Source: a virus
Strand: one strand, 5' to 3'
Virus record (IMG/VR): IMGVR_UViG_3300020455_000051
Coordinates: 1-34,200 of that record
DNA: 34,200 bases
The notes under the pieces are model-generated. The model did no database searches. It was not told where the DNA came from and saw only the letters and a list, made by a program, of their open reading frames with translations. Made by a program: the position numbers and the translations under genes. Positions 4,961 through 34,200 of the stretch are shown in pieces; within the stretch, counting starts at the first letter, position 1, and every line of letters begins with the position of its first letter.

Positions 4961-7900
4961 TGATCCAATATTAGAAGAAGAAACTATATCTCCTGTATTA
5001 GCTGAAGATGCTATTATTGCAAAAGATCAAGATATTAATGGAAATGAAATCCTTAATGATGGAGATGATGTTGTTAAAGTAGCTGGATTAGGTAAAGGCA
5101 TAAGCAAAGTTGTAAAACCAGTTACAGATTTTTTTAATGATAGTGCTGATGTATTAGTAGCTCCAGCAGTTAAGAAAGCTAAAGAAAAAGCTAAGTTAGA
5201 AAACAAAAAAATTGTTGAACAATCTGTTGATGAAAATCCTTTAGTAGTTTCAGCGAATGGCGAATTAAGAATTAGAAATGCTACACCAGAGGAAACAACC
5301 TTACTTAGTGGCTATAAAGATATTGACCAGCCATTAAGAACAAATGAAAAAGGTACTGCCAAGATAAAATCTGGCGATAAAGTTATACTTCCTAATCTTG
5401 AAAAAATAACAAGTTTAGATGGCGATGATGCCAGTTTAGATAAATTTCTAGCTTCTACATATTTAGCCTACAAAGACAAAAAAGTTGATGGTCAATTAAT
5501 ATTAGAAAAAGGTAATCGAGGTTTTAAGGAAATAATAAAAGATGCAAATAGAATAGGATCTGTAGATATTTTTCTAAAAATTATGAGTAGAAAAAAAGGC
5601 GATGCTAATTTTACAGATGCAGAATTGTTAGCTTCAAGAAAAACAATAATTTCATTACAAATAAATGCTAAAAGATTATTAGATAAAGCTATTAAAACTG
5701 GAGATTTATTAGATTTAGCTAAAGCATCTCAAGCTATATCAATAGAAGGTTATGCCAGTATTCAATTAATTAAAGTACAGGAAGATCTAGGAAGAGCATT
5801 AGTTACAAATAAAATTATATCTTCTCCTTCTTCAGCCAGAGTTAGTGCTATGGGTACTATGTTAGAAACTGTGGATGGTGGTGCTGGTACTGCTGTTATT
5901 AATGAATCTAATCTTGCAGAGTTTGTTGAAGCTTATGGTGGAGAAGAAGGTCTAAGACAATTCCTAGCAATGTATAATAGATTGCCAACAGATATGGCTA
6001 AAAACAATTTTGCTAAGAAATCTATTTTTAGAAAAGCTGGAGATAGCTTGGTAGAGATATTTCAATCAGCATTACTATCAAATCCCCTAACTCATTCATT
6101 TAACTTTGCTGGACAGACAATGTTTCAACAATTATTGATTGCTGAAAGAGCTTTAGGTGGAGAAGGTGCTGAAGCTCTGGCTATGTTTAAAGCACAATTT
6201 AAATATATGCCACAAGCTTGGAGAGCTGGAATGTATGCTCTAAGACATGAAAAAAGTATGACAGAAGCATCAACCAAACTTGAAAGTAATATGAAAGCTA
6301 TAAGTCGTGAAGGATGGGGACTTAGAAATACAGAGGAAGGTGGAACTACTGCTGAAAATGCATTTGCTAATTTTGCAGATGGGTTTGGTGTAATGATGCG
6401 ATTGCAAGGTTATAGACCGATGTTAGCAATGGATGATATGTTTAAAGCTATACAAAGAGGTATGCAGTTAGAAGCTTTAGCTATTAGAGCTGAAAAAGAT
6501 GCATATAATTCTGTAATGGATACAGGAAAAGTTCCTAAAGATTTTACAGGAACATTAACAGATTATGCAAATCAACAAGCCAAACAAGCTCATTTAAAAA
6601 CATTAAACTCACAAACAGCTTTTGATGAAGCTTCCCAATTTGCAAAGATGGCTACTTTTCAAGATGATTTAGAAGGAATGTTAGGTAGTCCACTTTTTTC
6701 AACTGTAATGAATTTTCCACTAATGAAAATATTTGTGCCATTTTACAAAACACCTACAAAAATAGTACAACGAATTATGGAGAGAACTCCATTAGCTTTA
6801 ATGATGCCATCTGTAGTTAGGGATCAATTAATAAATGGATCAGCATTACAAAGAAAACAAGCTTTAGCTAAAATAAGCTTATCTTCTGGATTAAGTGCAA
6901 CAGCTATGATGCTTTCATCTGGTATGATTTCAGATGATGTTGTTATTACTGGTTATGGAGAAACAGATCCTAAAGCTAGAAAAACTTGGTTAGAAACTCA
7001 CGAACCTTATTCTATTGGAGTTAAACAAGAAGATGGAAATTGGAAATGGATTAGTTATAAACGTATAGATCCTATTTCTGGTGTACTTGCTTTTTATTCA
7101 GACACAGCATACACAATTAGATATTCAAATGATCAAGAATTAATGTTTGATGCTTTTATGAATACAACTATTGCTAGTATGAAATACGTTGCTACATCCC
7201 TTCCTATGACACAATTTATCGGAAGTGTAATAGATACTGCTGGATCAAGTTTTGAAGATGGGGAAAGCAAATATAAAAGAATAGTGGAACTATTCGCAAA
7301 ACAAGCAACAACTACTGCTGGTACAATAGCTCAACAAATTGGAACTGGTGGATTATTTGGTCAAGGAATGTCGGCTACTGTTGAAAGATACGTTAGTCCA
7401 GAAGCTTCTAATGTGATGCCAGAGGATAGATATCAATACATTCCAACTATCGGTATGCCATCATTTATTAAAGGACATTATGAAGGTTTAAATAGGCTTA
7501 GATCAAGAATACCATATTTTTCTCAATCACTTCCTACAAAAACAAATAGATGGAATGAACCTATAAAACAAACTAATGGTGCTTTATGGGAAACTGTGTT
7601 GCCTTATAAAGTTGTAAATAAAAAAGCTGGAAATGTTATAAATACAGAATTAAACAGAATAGGATTAGGATTTAATAACCTTCCTAAAAACATGGGAGAA
7701 CCTATGTTAGAGTTGTCTGGAGAACAATATCAAAGATATATAGAGCTATATAATAATCCTATGGCAACTAAATTTGCGAATAAACTTGGTGTTAAAAACA
7801 TCCCTACTGCATTACAATCTTTTGAAAATACTATTTTAGGTAAGATGGAAATAGATGGTAAATTTGAATTTAGAGATGGAGAAGAAAATTATCTTCAAAT

Positions 7901-8168
7901 GTTTGAAGGAGAATTACAGCCAAAGCTTGTTGCATCTAGCAGAAAACATAAAATAACTTTACTTAGAAGAATAGATAGTAAATACAAAGACATAGCTAAA
8001 AAACTTATGTTTTTAGAATATCCAGATTTATTAGCTGTAAAAAATCAAAGGGAAAGTTATGAAAATGAATATGGTAAAAATCCACCTATGATTATTTCTC
8101 CAAGCCAATCTGATTTAGATACAGCTACAAGACAAAGAAATGAAATTTTAGAAAATGCAGTAAACTAA
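4947..8168 (+). CDS. Giant internal virion (ejection) protein, gp16-like by position
   Basis: A 1073-residue protein, the largest of the genome and the last of the ejection block. It starts inside the preceding gene (14-base overlap). The N-terminal 110 residues are acidic. The middle (about residues 370-650) contains long amphipathic helices, including SNPLTHSFNFAGQ and a PLMKIFVPFYKTPTKI segment; PFxxTP-type segments recur in very large ejected proteins of tailed phages. Hydrophobic stretches near residues 640-660 (SSGLSATAMMLSSGM) could insert in membrane. I see no catalytic motif and no SLT domain. The position corresponds to T7 gp16 (1318 residues), which lines the DNA-translocation tunnel. 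Ejection function is inferred from position, size and composition. Confidence 0.6.
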   Translation: MAIPNDPILEEETISPVLAEDAIIAKDQDINGNEILNDGDDVVKVAGLGKGISKVVKPVTDFFNDSADVLVAPAVKKAKEKAKLENKKIVEQSVDENPLVVSANGELRIRNATPEETTLLSGYKDIDQPLRTNEKGTAKIKSGDKVILPNLEKITSLDGDDASLDKFLASTYLAYKDKKVDGQLILEKGNRGFKEIIKDANRIGSVDIFLKIMSRKKGDANFTDAELLASRKTIISLQINAKRLLDKAIKTGDLLDLAKASQAISIEGYASIQLIKVQEDLGRALVTNKIISSPSSARVSAMGTMLETVDGGAGTAVINESNLAEFVEAYGGEEGLRQFLAMYNRLPTDMAKNNFAKKSIFRKAGDSLVEIFQSALLSNPLTHSFNFAGQTMFQQLLIAERALGGEGAEALAMFKAQFKYMPQAWRAGMYALRHEKSMTEASTKLESNMKAISREGWGLRNTEEGGTTAENAFANFADGFGVMMRLQGYRPMLAMDDMFKAIQRGMQLEALAIRAEKDAYNSVMDTGKVPKDFTGTLTDYANQQAKQAHLKTLNSQTAFDEASQFAKMATFQDDLEGMLGSPLFSTVMNFPLMKIFVPFYKTPTKIVQRIMERTPLALMMPSVVRDQLINGSALQRKQALAKISLSSGLSATAMMLSSGMISDDVVITGYGETDPKARKTWLETHEPYSIGVKQEDGNWKWISYKRIDPISGVLAFYSDTAYTIRYSNDQELMFDAFMNTTIASMKYVATSLPMTQFIGSVIDTAGSSFEDGESKYKRIVELFAKQATTTAGTIAQQIGTGGLFGQGMSATVERYVSPEASNVMPEDRYQYIPTIGMPSFIKGHYEGLNRLRSRIPYFSQSLPTKTNRWNEPIKQTNGALWETVLPYKVVNKKAGNVINTELNRIGLGFNNLPKNMGEPMLELSGEQYQRYIELYNNPMATKFANKLGVKNIPTALQSFENTILGKMEIDGKFEFRDGEENYLQMFEGELQPKLVASSRKHKITLLRRIDSKYKDIAKKLMFLEYPDLLAVKNQRESYENEYGKNPPMIISPSQSDLDTATRQRNEILENAVN

Positions 8169-8183
8169 AAAGGCATAATTTAA

Positions 8184-8212
8184 ATGACACAAATTTATTT
8201 TTACTGTATAAA
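8184..8212 (+). promoter_or_regulatory. Sigma70-like promoter for the tail-fibre block
   Basis: In the 66-base gap before the tail fibre, ATGACA (8184-8189) and TATAAA (8207-8212) are separated by exactly 17 bases. They match the -35 and -10 consensus at five of six and five of six positions. A ribosome-binding site (AAGGAAGG) follows at about 8219-8226, and the fibre gene starts at 8235. The phage carries no RNA polymerase, so host sigma70 promoters are expected. AT-rich sequence makes chance -10 matches common; the -35 and spacing raise the odds. Confidence 0.55.
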
Positions 8213-8234
8213 CACTATAAGGAAGGTATAAAGT

Positions 8235-9506
8235 ATGGCAACATTTAGTGTAAACGATACTTTACGAAGAGCTATTTTAACAGGAAATGGCAGTACAACT
8301 TCTTTTGCCTTTTCATTTCAAGTTAATGCAATTACAGATATTAAAGTTTATGTTGATGGAACTTTAAAAACTCAAGGCACAGGATCAGCTAACTATGCAG
8401 TCCAAGATGGATCTGGTAGTGCTGGACTATCTAATACTGGAACTGGTGCTGTAGTGTTTGTTACAGCTCCAGCTAATGCTACTACAATAACAATCTTATC
8501 AGACATACCTTTAGCCAGAACTTCTCTTTATACCTCTGGTGGAAATGTTACAGCATCATCTTTAGAAAATGATTTTGATACTCTTACAATGGCTATTGGA
8601 GATAGAGAAGAAAGAGATGCAAGATCCTTACAAGCTCCAGTTCAAGATCCAACATCTATTGATATGACTTTACCAGCTAAAGCTTCAAGATTAGGTAAAC
8701 TTTTAGGATTTAATTCTTCTACTGGAAATCCAGAAGCTACATTTACTACAGCCGATGGACAGACATTATCAAACATTGCATCTGATATTGCCACATTAGC
8801 TGATTTACAAGATGGAACAACTGTAACTAATGGTCTAAGTGGATTAGCTGGTATTAAAGCAGACATTACAACTGTTGCTGGTATAAGTGCTAGTAACATA
8901 ACTGCTGTGGCTGGTATATCTAGTGAAATATCAACAAATGCTTCTAATATTTCTGCAATTCAAGGTGCTTCAGCCAATGCTACTAAAGCAGAAAATTATG
9001 CGATTAAAGTAGATGGAGCTGTTGAATCAAGCCAATATTCATCTAAAGCATGGGCGATTGGTGGAACTGGTGTAACAGATACTTCTGGTGCTGGAAGTGC
9101 TAAATCTTGGGCAGTTGAAGCAGATGCAGTAGATGGCACAGAACATTCATCCAAGACTTATGCAGTAAGTGGTTCTACTCTTAATGCTGGATCAGCTAAA
9201 AACTGGGCATTAGGTGGTGGAGATAGTTTTTCTTCATCAACGACAATAGGAAATACTGGATTATATTCTGCTAAATATTGGGCAGAACAATCAGCTTTAT
9301 CCAAAACAGAATTTTCTAATATTTATCAAGGCACTCATTCTTCTGATCCTTCTGGTGGGAGTGTATCTGCTGGAGATTTATATTTTAATAGCAGTTCTAA
9401 TGTACTCAAATTTTACAATGGCTCTGCATGGGCAAACATAGAAGCTACAGATACAAGTAGCTTTGCAACAAATGGTTTTGCGATAGCCGTTAGCATAGCT
9501 TTATAG
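8235..9506 (+). CDS. Tail fibre protein with T7 gp17-type N-terminus
   Basis: A 423-residue protein. Residues 1-135 form the domain by which T7-type fibres attach to the tail: a start resembling MATFSVNDTLRRAILTGNG, the VYVDGTL segment, and the ENDFDTL..A.GDREERDARSLQAP end that leads into the shaft. Residues about 180-250 are a Ser/Ala/Ile-rich shaft. From about 250 to 360 there are imperfect repeats of 25-35 residues centred on SSKAWA/SAKSWAV/SSKTYAV/SAKNWAL/SAKYWAEQ, a common trimeric-fibre pattern. Near 370-403, a GDLYFNSSSNVLKFYNGSAW module is a small tip or connector domain found in many phage fibres. It acts at adsorption. The protein is shorter than T7 gp17 (553), and the receptor-binding tip is probably supplied by the following small genes. 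Confidence 0.9.
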   Translation: MATFSVNDTLRRAILTGNGSTTSFAFSFQVNAITDIKVYVDGTLKTQGTGSANYAVQDGSGSAGLSNTGTGAVVFVTAPANATTITILSDIPLARTSLYTSGGNVTASSLENDFDTLTMAIGDREERDARSLQAPVQDPTSIDMTLPAKASRLGKLLGFNSSTGNPEATFTTADGQTLSNIASDIATLADLQDGTTVTNGLSGLAGIKADITTVAGISASNITAVAGISSEISTNASNISAIQGASANATKAENYAIKVDGAVESSQYSSKAWAIGGTGVTDTSGAGSAKSWAVEADAVDGTEHSSKTYAVSGSTLNAGSAKNWALGGGDSFSSSTTIGNTGLYSAKYWAEQSALSKTEFSNIYQGTHSSDPSGGSVSAGDLYFNSSSNVLKFYNGSAWANIEATDTSSFATNGFAIAVSIAL

Positions 9507-18174: not shown

Positions 18175-18687
18175 TCAAATTGGCATGTTTTGTTCTGAAG
18201 ATGCAAATTGTTCTTGCATCAATTTTTCAAAATCCATAAGTCTGTGATGTGCAATACCGATCTGCACTCCTGCAATATCTTTTCGCCATTCACAATACAT
18301 TTCCATCGCTTCTATAAGTGGCTGTGATGCTTGACAGCTAACAGTTGCACCTTTTTTTTGAACTTCAATCCAACCTTCAGCTTCACACTCATTAATCATA
18401 GTCGAAATGGTCTGTCTATTGCTGTGCATTTCATTTACAAGCTCTGTAATCGTGTAAAATCTATTTGCATAAGCTCCATACACCATCCAACGAGAAAAAG
18501 CATTTTTTAAGGGTGTCGAATTGAAATATCTTTGTATTTTAGTCATTGATCGAGTTTGCCTAGCTTGAAAGACAGCCATTTCAACTTCTATAATTTTCAT
18601 ACGATAATCATGCAGTAAATGCCTATGTATACTCTCAACAGAATTGTGAATGCTTGAATTGTCGCAACATTGTTTTGTATTGTTCAT
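18175..18687 (-). CDS. Winged-helix (MarR-like) DNA-binding protein
   Basis: A 170-residue protein. The N-terminus has a Cys/His-rich start (KQCCDNSSIHNSVESIHRHLLH). The central helices carry a helix-turn-helix (about residues 80-112: YTITELVNEMHSNRQTISTMIN) followed by a wing strand EGWIEVQKKG, as in MarR-type regulators. The C-terminus is helical and could dimerise. Its start overlaps the stop of the serine recombinase gene, so both are made together. Likely a regulator of this operon or a partner of the recombinase; the target is not known. Confidence 0.65.
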   Translation of the reverse strand: MNNTKQCCDNSSIHNSVESIHRHLLHDYRMKIIEVEMAVFQARQTRSMTKIQRYFNSTPLKNAFSRWMVYGAYANRFYTITELVNEMHSNRQTISTMINECEAEGWIEVQKKGATVSCQASQPLIEAMEMYCEWRKDIAGVQIGIAHHRLMDFEKLMQEQFASSEQNMPI

Positions 18688-19436
18688 TATTTCACTCCCT
18701 TAGATCTTAAATACATATTTCTAATAGTTGATCCATGCCATTCGCCTTTTCTGGCAGTTGGATAACCTCTCTTATTAAAATCCAAAGCTATCTCCCTATA
18801 AGACCATCCCATGTCTAGTCCTCTCTGGATGTTAGGTAATAGATTATCAGCTAGTTCATTAGCTTTAATCTTATTGCCCATAGCACCTTTCTTCTGTGCC
18901 TTCTTAGTCATACCAACTCCAAGCTTGGTAATCTTATTGCCAGATCTTGATACATGAGATCCATTAACTTTTATGTCATGTTTAATTCTGGCTAGTGCAG
19001 TTTTAGTTCGTTCTGATATGAGCTGTCGTTCATGTTGATTCATAACTGCCATGAAACCAACTGTAGTTTCATCCAGCATAGGATAGTCAACAACTATAAG
19101 TTTGATTTTGCCTTGCGATATAACATCGTCAAAGAAGTTAAGAACATCCCCTCTCCTTCTACCTAATCTGGATAAAGAATAGATGATTAAAGTTGCTTTG
19201 TTTTTTCTGCAATACTTAATGGCATCATTAAGTACTGGTCTTTTTGCCCATTCGGTTTTACCAGATACAGCTTCTTCCTTAAACCATTCTACATGATGAT
19301 CGCCACCATTTAGATATTGTTTGATTGCAAAGATCTGGTTTTCAACATCCTGTTTGTCGGTTGATACACGAACTAAAGCACAATATTTGCCTGTATGCTT
19401 TTTGCCATGATCAGCTCTAAGAATATTAGTTTCCAT
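18687..19436 (-). CDS. Small serine recombinase (resolvase/invertase family)
   Basis: A 249-residue site-specific recombinase. The resolvase domain (residues about 17-160) shows the nucleophile S25 in ALVRVSTDKQ (with R23), then IIYSLSRLGRRRGD with R90 and R93/94, and FMAVMNQHERQLISERTK, all family hallmarks. Residues about 190-245 (ANELADNLLPNIQRG.., YREIALDFNKRGYPTARKGEWHGSTIRNM) resemble the start of the 'Recombinase' domain or a resolvase HTH. The zinc-ribbon and coiled coil of large serine integrases are absent. It may resolve genome multimers, act as an integrase-like enzyme, or invert DNA. No att site is evident. Confidence 0.88.
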   Translation of the reverse strand: METNILRADHGKKHTGKYCALVRVSTDKQDVENQIFAIKQYLNGGDHHVEWFKEEAVSGKTEWAKRPVLNDAIKYCRKNKATLIIYSLSRLGRRRGDVLNFFDDVISQGKIKLIVVDYPMLDETTVGFMAVMNQHERQLISERTKTALARIKHDIKVNGSHVSRSGNKITKLGVGMTKKAQKKGAMGNKIKANELADNLLPNIQRGLDMGWSYREIALDFNKRGYPTARKGEWHGSTIRNMYLRSKGVK

Positions 19437-22691: not shown

Positions 22692-22756
22692 GTTCCTAAA
22701 GAATTTATACACAGCACGATCTCTAAAAAATAAATCTGTGGCAAAAAGCGACTATA

Positions 22757-22791
22757 GGGGGGGGATGGTCGAGGGGTATCGTGGGGGTATC
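22757..22791 (+). other. G-rich triple repeat in an intergenic gap (possible G-quadruplex)
   Basis: Within a 172-base gap in a genome that is otherwise AT-rich, there is a run of eight G (22757-22764), then four G (22773-22776) and five G (22783-22787), arranged as three imperfect units of 10-11 bases, two ending in GGGGTATC. Together they could supply four G3 tracts for a G-quadruplex. No coding frame spans it. Lies between the initiator gene and the transporter gene. Confidence 0.7.
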
Positions 22792-22841
22792 TCACAAAAA
22801 TATTTTCTAAAAAACCATAAAACAAAAAAAGGACAAACATA

Positions 22842-23312
22842 ATGGCACAATATAAGTTTAGTTTAATTTACATTTTAAGTATTGTTTTAGTTAACATAGG
22901 GTTTGTATATGTTCCATTAATACCATTATTTGATACGATGTATCCACCTATGACGATTGCTGTAGGTTTAATTTTTATTCTAAGAGATTATGCCCAAAAA
23001 GAAATAGGTCATAAAGTTTTAGGAGCTATGTTAATTGGTGGTTTGTTAAGTTATGTAATGGCTGATCCATATATAGCTGTGGCATCATTAGTTGCTTTTA
23101 TGGTTTCTGAAACTGTTGATTGGGGTGTTTATACTTTAACAGACAAGCCTTTACGACAAAGAATATTATTAAGTTCTTTAATATCCACACCGATAGATAG
23201 TGGTTTATTTCTTTACATGATAGGTCAATTTAGTCTGACTGCAACATTGGTAATGTTTGTTTCAAAGATGCTTGGTGCTTTAGCTGTATGGCATTGGTTG
23301 GCAAAAAAATGA
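22842..23312 (+). CDS. VUT/YhhQ-type queuosine-precursor transporter
   Basis: A 156-residue inner-membrane protein with five or six hydrophobic segments. The stretch PPMTIAVGLIFILRDYAQKEIGHK (about residues 32-55) and the SETVDWGVYTLTDKPLRQR segment after the third to fourth spans are strong marks of the VUT_1/YhhQ family, which imports the deazaguanine preQ0 (or preQ1) used for queuosine and for 7-deazaguanine DNA modification. It is preceded by AGGAC and overlaps the next gene by ATGA. No export signal other than membrane spans. The next gene, TGT-like, is the obvious user of the imported base. Confidence 0.85.
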   Translation: MAQYKFSLIYILSIVLVNIGFVYVPLIPLFDTMYPPMTIAVGLIFILRDYAQKEIGHKVLGAMLIGGLLSYVMADPYIAVASLVAFMVSETVDWGVYTLTDKPLRQRILLSSLISTPIDSGLFLYMIGQFSLTATLVMFVSKMLGALAVWHWLAKK

Positions 23313-24010
23313 TTCATTATCATGGAACACCATTAACACCTAGAGAACAGTTATATAAAATGGCTGGTAAACATTTCTGTGTAAGTTTTGCAGATGCAAG
23401 AGATGCAGATCTTTGTTTACAAATAGGTCAATCTATAATGTGGGATAATGGTGCTTTCACATCTTACACTCAAAACAAGCAGATCGATTATAACAAATTG
23501 TATGCTTGGCTTGAGCCTAAACTTGGTCATCCTCATTGGTGTGTTATTCCAGATGTTATAGGTGGTTCTATTAAGGATAATAAAAAACTTTTGTTACAGC
23601 ATCCTTTTCCAGAAAATTTATCATCTCCTGTATGGCATCTTAATTTAAATATAGATTATCTTCTTTTCTTAACAGATAGATATCCAAAAATTTGTTTTGG
23701 TAGTTCTGGCGAATATTGGAAAGTAGGATCTGATAAATGGTGCAATAGAATAGATGAAGCATTTAATGAGTTAGCAAAAAAACATAGGCATTTACCACAT
23801 ATTCATATGCTTAGAGGATTGGCACAAGCTGGAAAAAAATATCCATTTGCTTCTGCTGATAGTGTTAATGTAGCTCGTAATTATAAAGATAAAAATTTAT
23901 GTCCAGAATTGATGGCTAGAAAAATTGATGCCATTCAATGCCCAGTAAAATGGGTTCAGCAACCAACTCAACAACAATTAAAAGTAATAGGAGAAACATT
24001 ATGGCAATAA
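23309..24010 (+). CDS. TGT/DpdA-like deazaguanine transglycosylase
   Basis: Start chosen at ATG 23309, which overlaps the transporter stop (ATGA); a frame start at 23288 would enter the transporter gene. The 233-residue protein has the elements of a tRNA-guanine-transglycosylase-type TIM barrel: MWDNGAFTSY (D46, cf. TGT DSGGF), VIPDVIGG (D82), ICFGSSGEY, and YPFASADSVNVARN with D184 as the likely nucleophile. It is shorter than tRNA TGT (about 375) and lacks the C-terminal zinc site with its Cys cluster, as in DNA-directed DpdA proteins. Probable role: exchange of guanine for preQ0-type base in phage DNA. A role on tRNA is not excluded. Confidence 0.72.
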   Translation: MIHYHGTPLTPREQLYKMAGKHFCVSFADARDADLCLQIGQSIMWDNGAFTSYTQNKQIDYNKLYAWLEPKLGHPHWCVIPDVIGGSIKDNKKLLLQHPFPENLSSPVWHLNLNIDYLLFLTDRYPKICFGSSGEYWKVGSDKWCNRIDEAFNELAKKHRHLPHIHMLRGLAQAGKKYPFASADSVNVARNYKDKNLCPELMARKIDAIQCPVKWVQQPTQQQLKVIGETLWQ

Positions 24011-24201
24011 TCTATGACGTATCACAGGGAACTAAGTATTTGAAGGATGGCGAAGAGAAAACCAGATGGCAAAGACTGGGAGTTGCCTTTGAAAAGGAAG
24101 GTAAAATCACTTCTGTTAAGCTAGAAGCTTTACCAATTCCCAACAAAGAGGGCGAGATTTGGTTAAATATCTTCCCTCAAAAAGATAAAGTTCCATTTTA
24201 A
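24001..24201 (+). CDS. 66-residue small beta-type protein
   Basis: The ATG at 24001 with AGGAGAAAC upstream is preferred; it overlaps the TGT-like gene by 10 bases. The product, starting MAIIYDVSQGTKYLKDGEEK, with KTRWQRLGVAFEKEG and EIWLNIFPQ, alternates strands as in small OB or SH3-like proteins. Its stop overlaps the terminase gene start. I do not know its function; DNA-binding or an accessory to modification or packaging is possible. Confidence 0.6.
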   Translation: MAIIYDVSQGTKYLKDGEEKTRWQRLGVAFEKEGKITSVKLEALPIPNKEGEIWLNIFPQKDKVPF

Positions 24202-33876: not shown

Positions 33877-34200
33877 GTGGAGCTGAATTATATCTTGTAG
33901 CTAGTCTTGTTTCTGCTGGAGTTAAATATGCAAAAACAAAGTCTGATGCCAAAAAGTTAAAATCACAAGCATATCAAGCAGAAATAAAAGGTAGAGTTGA
34001 TAGAGCTAATTATAAGCAACAAGGAATTAATACACTTAAAGAAATGAGCCAAGTTATGTCAGCTAATGTTGCCAGAGCTTTTTCTGGTAACTTAGATCCA
34101 TTTAAATCTGGGGAAACACCAGACATAATACAATCTTATAGTCTTAGAGCTGGGTTAAATGATTACAGTATAACAAGAGATAATGCTTCAATAGTAATGA
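33873..34200 (+). CDS. gp14-like internal virion protein, 5' part (continues at 1-338)
   Basis: This begins with an ATGA overlap with the nozzle gene. The N-terminus SGAELYLVASLVSAGVKYAKTK is a hydrophobic helix followed by a basic segment; the ANYKQQGINTLKEMSQVMSANVARAFSGN run is a feature of T7-gp14-like proteins. The frame continues from 34200 to base 85 without a break. Total 193 residues. Function, an ejected membrane-pore protein, follows from the T7 family. Confidence 0.8.
   Translation, partial: MSGAELYLVASLVSAGVKYAKTKSDAKKLKSQAYQAEIKGRVDRANYKQQGINTLKEMSQVMSANVARAFSGNLDPFKSGETPDIIQSYSLRAGLNDYSITRDNASIVM
34117..34200. repeat. Terminal overlap of a circular assembly (right copy)
   Basis: Copy of bases 1-84 with a single difference (C at 34124 versus T at 8). 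Both copies lie in the same codon phase of the gp14-like gene. Confidence 0.93.

Follow-up and report, generated by a model that had tools for sequence, protein, structure and literature searches.

The largest class of phages encoding DpdA carries no precursor biosynthesis genes: Hutinet 2019 listed 76 such phages and already proposed that their precursor is made by the host or imported (PMC6884629). The initial annotation of the locus described here had assumed that DpdA phages usually carry several of these genes, which that count contradicts. Phage YhhQ homologues were noted in the same survey and found uncorrelated with any phage group, phage 7-11 contained dADG at 0.02% of G, none was detected in Orion, and the dPreQ0 of CAjan was lost on dpdA deletion (PMC6884629). 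Pantoea phage MED16, which has only a homologous short DpdA, carries dADG at 0.13% of G, and most of the restriction enzymes tried still cut its DNA, with no noticeable effect of dADG on them (PMC8306585); strong restriction protection should therefore not be assumed. The concept of DpdA-only salvage is thus not new, and a DpdA-only phage with measured dADG has already been published. We found no base analysis in the literature for a phage with exactly a VUT transporter and a short DpdA, the combination examined below.

We analyzed IMG/VR record IMGVR_UViG_3300020455_000051, a marine bacterial virus whose entire 34,200 nt form the window. An 84-base repeat with one mismatch is common to both genome ends (1–85 and 34116–34199), and the last ORF reads on in frame into the first across the end join; the genome is therefore probably complete and circularly assembled. 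A T7-type head–tail connector, tail tubular proteins, and an internal virion protein bear out the early labeling of the virus as a podovirus. Its closest isolate is Methylophilales phage MEP301 (terminase 65%, connector 51%), which lacks both genes of the cassette. TerL and the connector, leading to MEP301, give a tentative pointer to the host, and no host sequence matched the genome. A serine-recombinase-like protein is encoded at 18687–19436 on the − strand, and a Pfam scan of the genome recorded both PF00239 and PF07508, without showing which member bears PF07508. Since PF07508 is absent from MEP301 according to the MEP301 paper, the present phage may be able to integrate.

The first cassette gene (22842–23312, + strand) encodes a predicted VUT/YhhQ-like 7-deazaguanine precursor transporter of 156 aa. 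It matched phrog_4899 (E 3e-34), a family that takes in all 27 phage homologues compared, including the annotated “putative preQ0 transporter” of CAjan (∼42% identical), and that also matches the E. coli genome; hhalign aligned it with E. coli YhhQ over 108 columns (E 2e-4). This homology sustains the VUT/YhhQ-type call of the initial annotation, with scores below the curated cut-offs, narrowly so for PF02592 (E 7e-6; 27.0 bits against 27.2) and clearly so for TIGR00697 (E 6e-7; 29.4 bits against 50.95). Using an alignment made from the window and the viral loci, we obtained an AlphaFold model (pLDDT 87) whose 14 best VIA-align matches, reaching Z 8.9, were all ECF S-components or ECF subunits related to them; with helical proteins, scores of this size are no more than suggestive of a likeness to S-components. 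Members of the YhhQ family differ in cargo, which may be preQ0, preQ1, or queuine, and their specificity is not readable from sequence (PMC11130926). The transporter and DpdA ORFs lie where they had been annotated and share an ATGA stop–start overlap (23309–23312, + strand) indicative of translational coupling, and overlap or near-overlap of the two genes recurs in many relatives.

The second gene (23309–24010, + strand) encodes a predicted short DpdA, a TGT-family 7-deazaguanine DNA transglycosylase of 233 aa. Residues 1–192 matched phrog_887, “queuine tRNA-ribosyltransferase” (E 1.2e-35), and homologues were found in 104 phage records (best 48% identity), several of them annotated with that name. 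A profile comparison aligned the protein with CAjan DpdA, whose function is proven (hhalign 2e-5). No match to PF01702 appeared up to E 1, no TGT came up when solved structures were compared by sequence alone, and hhalign against the TGTs of 10 bacterial genomes and E. coli gave nothing significant (E. coli TGT, E 0.02–0.09); the TGT link therefore rests on phrog_887, the CAjan DpdA, and the predicted fold. In the AlphaFold model (pLDDT 91.7), eight strands are arranged in the order of a barrel, and TGT-family proteins occupy 49 of the model's 50 best VIA-align PDB rows (Z 13.1–14.8), the remaining one being PdxJ (13.3). At the top stood CBASS Cap10 (Z 14.8), archaeosine TGT (Z 14.4), and bacterial TGTs (Z 13+). 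Foldseek alone placed generic TIM barrels on top, and TGTs emerged only with VIA-align. Of the two relations suggested at the outset, that to DpdA stood, together with an eight-stranded TGT-like barrel, and that to PF01702 did not.

The candidate catalytic residues are strongly conserved across 88 aligned sequences, CAjan and MED16 included. D46 of DNGAF (23444–23446, end of strand 3), H110 (23636–23638, end of strand 5), H166 (23804–23806, end of strand 7), and D184 of ASADS (23858–23860, end of strand 8), all on the + strand, are invariant (88/88 each, with H110 also present in CAjan and MED16). On the same strand, D82 of PDVIGG (23552–23554, after strand 4) is conserved in 87/88, and in GSSG (residues 131–134; 23699–23710, in the loop after strand 6) G131 is found in 88/88 and S132 in 86/88. 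All four motifs named in the initial annotation are thus present and conserved. In the model, D46, D82, H110, G131, H166, and D184 sit at or just past strand ends, a placement that, by strand position, is compatible with the anticipated D46/D82/D184 arrangement. D46 aligned weakly (E 0.02) with the Asp of ILTDSGGF in E. coli TGT and is the predicted counterpart of the TGT general acid/base Asp; D184, aligned with the Asp of CAjan SCDS, is the predicted nucleophile. Judged by strand position, D46 and D184 would be equivalent to the TGT aspartates that we take to be Asp102 and Asp280 of the Zymomonas enzyme, D46 alone being directly, and weakly, aligned.

The zinc motif CxCxxC (the CxCx2C...H site of tRNA TGTs) is missing from this DpdA, as had been annotated, and from all 89 phage homologues, and inspection of the CAjan sequence shows that its proven DpdA lacks it too. 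The absence is therefore no special trait of the 233-residue enzyme; it is normal for phage DpdA. Both the transporter and the DpdA gene are under purifying selection (dN/dS ∼0.17–0.28), a value that argues against a chance ORF and on which we rejected a decayed remnant as the source of the DpdA reading frame. By analogy with relatives of known activity, this DpdA would insert a 7-deazaguanine into DNA.

Together the two genes make up a 1.2-kb inserted segment (22834–24003, + strand) that is absent from the closest relatives. In L121–L124, whose terminases are 95–96% identical to that of this phage, the order is Rep, 66-aa protein, TerS, TerL, with no cassette and with ∼20–40 bp in its place (∼20 bp in L121). 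Homology by blastn to L121 and L122 ends at 22833 and restarts at 24004, and that to L123 and L124 restarts at 24025. Because the L121 homology breaks at 22833/24004 with only ∼20 bp between, the insert is exactly the two genes, VUT and DpdA. The 66-aa phage core gene next to TerS (24001–24201, + strand), whose start overlaps the end of DpdA, lies outside the cassette and occupies the same place in the cassette-free relatives. Between Rep and the cassette runs a G-rich element, gactatagggggggg...ggggtatcgtgggggtatc (22740–22800), which is conserved in L121 and L124 and could be an origin or a promoter. A diverged VUT/DpdA pair sits in the Rep/p66 slot of L169 and L171, as in this phage, and between TerS and TerL in L173. 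The same slot in L134 (3333–4700) holds VUT, a small QueF-Like-related protein, and a DpdA of a different subfamily, this TGT sharing ∼44–47% identity with proteins labeled “DpdA-like” in Mycobacterium and Arthrobacter phages. Deazaguanine genes seem to settle in this slot repeatedly.

No precursor pathway accompanies the insert. QueC and QueD are absent from the 34,200-nt record by HMM, and in 42 ORFs scanned with Pfam, the radical-SAM, GTP-cyclohydrolase, PTPS, QueC, and QueF families did not appear; for QueE and FolE, absence was judged by the Pfam scan only. On these grounds, the earlier reading of a genome free of preQ0 biosynthesis genes holds. The phage belongs to the DpdA-only class (Hutinet group 3), within which it stands out in that an importer is coupled to the enzyme and both genes lie in one clean insert.

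We then asked how regularly the two genes occur together, using 80 viral loci with DpdA relatives, and 85 loci in 29 DpdA clusters at 75% identity for the cluster counts. VUT adjoins DpdA in 72/80 loci (58/63 where the flank was adequate), either upstream or downstream, and is present in 25 of the 29 clusters; every other neighbor family reaches at most 11. The distances of VUT correlate with those of DpdA (r = 0.60, 0/2000 permutations), and the pair is also found together in 9 of 13 DpdA loci of bacterial genomes, mainly Rhizobiales. Since the other neighbors vary and the pair occupies different slots, we rejected both chance adjacency and shared ancestry of the whole region as explanations. 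The pairing of VUT and DpdA is a systematic, widespread, mobile unit, newly described here, and no gene but VUT accompanies this DpdA clade consistently.

Biosynthesis genes replace VUT in the same slot in a few relatives. VUT is present in 19 of the 21 long viral records, always without QueC and without QueD; L038, also one of the 21, has QueE, QueC, and QueD without VUT. L056 likewise combines QueE and QueD with no VUT, and L044 keeps DpdA without VUT and without QueC/QueD, the small third protein described below being present. Three close mutual relatives (L025, at 6692–8410, L030, and L033) carry VUT, QueC, and DpdA and no QueD, as checked by HMM for QueD and by phmmer only for QueE; they perhaps import an earlier intermediate, such as 7-carboxy-7-deazaguanine. 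In L087 (8705–9726), the Caulobacter phage DMCA, a 98-aa QueD-like protein lies directly upstream of a short DpdA with no VUT, which is another reduced arrangement. Because the class without VUT is small and the loci are not independent, the alternation of VUT and biosynthesis genes is a strong trend, not a law.

A third protein of ∼80 aa adjoins DpdA in 26/85 loci (11/29 clusters), usually between VUT and DpdA, and is absent from the genome of this phage. It was seen at L004 (6828–7067), as well as beside DpdA in L008, L012, L018, L026, L050, L084, L090, and others; the isolates X2_30, Mae-JY30, and Epa33, all with a short DpdA, carry it too. A search with the single sequence returned four viral loci, all ordered VUT, small protein, DpdA. 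Its invariant residues are Y5, C13, P14, Y22, E35, E52, and H71. Pfam gave nothing convincing and its phrog_37496 is unannotated; in the PDB, its profile significantly matched only the archaeosine synthase QueF-Like (5jyx, E 2.8e-4), with the conserved Cys aligned to Cys21, which we take to be the preQ0-binding nucleophile. Two further candidates for such mini QueF-Like proteins, the small ORF beside the Pam5 DpdA and MED16 gp37, were not matched by the profile. It is an evenly balanced proposition that these loci are versions of one mobile island for 7-deazaguanine salvage, modular in build, variable in its middle slot, and shared by phages of several host groups, in which the mini QueF-Like protein would turn imported preQ0 into archaeosine or preQ1. 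Its variants would then be transporter plus DpdA; transporter, mini QueF-Like (∼80 aa), and DpdA; transporter, QueC, and DpdA; and QueD/QueE/QueC in place of the transporter. If so, the variants with the mini QueF-Like protein would be among the smallest known routes to hypermodified DNA.

As to where the base comes from, 13 genomes carrying related loci all have a standard TGT (13/13) and mostly have QueC, strong in proteobacterial isolates and weak or missing in three MAGs. QueC was above cut-off in 288 of 300 genomes sampled from the order of Ideonella (Burkholderiales), including every sampled genome of 1.5 Mb or less. GTDB places Methylophilaceae in Burkholderiales. If the phage infects a Methylophilales bacterium, its host probably has its own preQ0 synthesis, and the importer would supplement that pool. 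As against the sea, which the initial annotation also allowed for, host-made preQ0 may be the main source of the base, because the probable host groups and the hosts of related prophages mostly encode QueC.

We consider it probable that VUT and the short DpdA constitute a mobile cassette of minimal size that salvages 7-deazaguanine for DNA modification. Fusions of QPTR and TGT in bacteria (PMC11130926) fit such a pairing. The transporter would import preQ0 or preQ1 into the infected cell, supplementing the host pool, and the short DpdA, with its TGT-type barrel, would swap guanine in phage DNA for the imported base. The exchange would proceed through a covalent Asp nucleophile, with D184 in that role and D46 as acid/base. 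Since no QueF- or ArcS-type enzyme was found in the genome, the expected product would be dPreQ0, or dADG as in MED16, and the modification might hinder host nucleases or serve another DNA-marking role. The cassette logic of the earlier import-plus-transfer interpretation is upheld by the consistent linkage of VUT and by the biosynthesis genes that replace it; the supposed rarity of gene-poor systems and the significance given to the zinc site are not. We infer the substrate specificity, DNA as the target, the imported base, the chemistry, and any benefit, restriction protection included. Weighing against DNA salvage are the base levels of DpdA-only phages, which are low (0.02–0.13% of G) or nil (Orion).

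The same two proteins might instead act on tRNA, the transporter supplying preQ1, preQ0, or queuine and the TGT modifying tRNAs so as to raise translation during infection. The DpdA fold matches tRNA TGTs as closely as anything, and bacterial QPTR–TGT fusions exist that serve tRNA queuosine (PMC11130926). We nevertheless regard action on tRNA as unlikely, given that the hosts of related prophages already possess a standard TGT, that the profile places this DpdA among phage DpdAs and the tRNA-TGT zinc site is missing, and that the tested relative MED16 has modified DNA (PMC8306585). Less probable still is that DpdA simply uses host-made preQ0, with the transporter a redundant passenger or an importer of another nutrient, such as a vitamin: this is countered by linkage across 25/29 DpdA clusters in otherwise differing neighborhoods and by the few relatives with QueD/QueE/QueC instead of VUT, even though most candidate host genomes encode QueC and no VUT is seen near dpdA in SfI, D105, and MED16, short-DpdA phages of enterobacteria and Vibrio. 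The structure that matched best, Cap10 bound to NDG-modified CdnD (Z 14.8), is tied with archaeosine TGT and raises the thought of a TGT-like protein with a role outside nucleic acids, for example binding or removing deazaguanylated protein N termini of type IV CBASS, which would make the cassette a counterdefense; Cap10 is itself a TGT-family protein remodeled to bind such an N terminus (PMC11996544). Z gaps under 1 amount to ties, however, the catalytic-type aspartates are invariant, and base transfer accounts better for the linkage with a base importer and with biosynthesis genes, so that we hold a counterdefense role to be very improbable.

What is new is the systematic pairing, the way biosynthesis genes alternate with the importer, and the mini QueF-Like protein. 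For the base source of biosynthesis-free DpdA phages, a point left open by Hutinet 2019, there is in this clade a strong correlation with VUT. Because biosynthesis genes stand in the place of the importer in a few relatives, the choice to make the base or import it can be tested directly on a two-gene, 1.2-kb cassette. As a set of small parts, the cassette could also be used to write modified bases into DNA, and it suggests that free 7-deazaguanines are worth importing in sea and soil.

Compared with known systems, the phage resembles the DpdA-only phages (the third group of Hutinet) and MED16 in having no FolE, QueD, QueE, or QueC and in drawing its precursor from the host or from outside. 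The short DpdA of MED16 is 36.7% identical to the one described here; MED16 has no VUT near it, whereas in this phage a dedicated transporter is coupled to DpdA and the two genes sit in a discrete insert. E. coli YhhQ (QPTR, COG1738) belongs to the same membrane protein family as the phage transporter, with 221 aa as against 156 aa for the latter, which falls under the TIGR00697 cut-off. Type IV CBASS Cap10 shares the TGT-family fold as the top structural match of the DpdA model, but it binds a deazaguanylated protein N terminus, and the annotation of this phage contains no CBASS gene. The CAjan-type phages (Seuratvirus, Queuovirinae) have DpdA and a homologous transporter, like this phage; unlike it, CAjan makes preQ0 with FolE, QueD, QueE, and QueC and reaches 32% of G, and its DpdA is only distantly related (hhalign 2e-5). 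DpdAs of the same clade (44–48% identity) lie near VUT/DUF165 in Pseudanabaena phage Pam5 and the Rhizobium phages RHph_X2_30 and RHph_N3_2, with no Que genes annotated in the region compared. Gene order and spacing vary among these three, and RHph_X2_30 adds the ∼80-aa QueF-Like-related protein to the pair.
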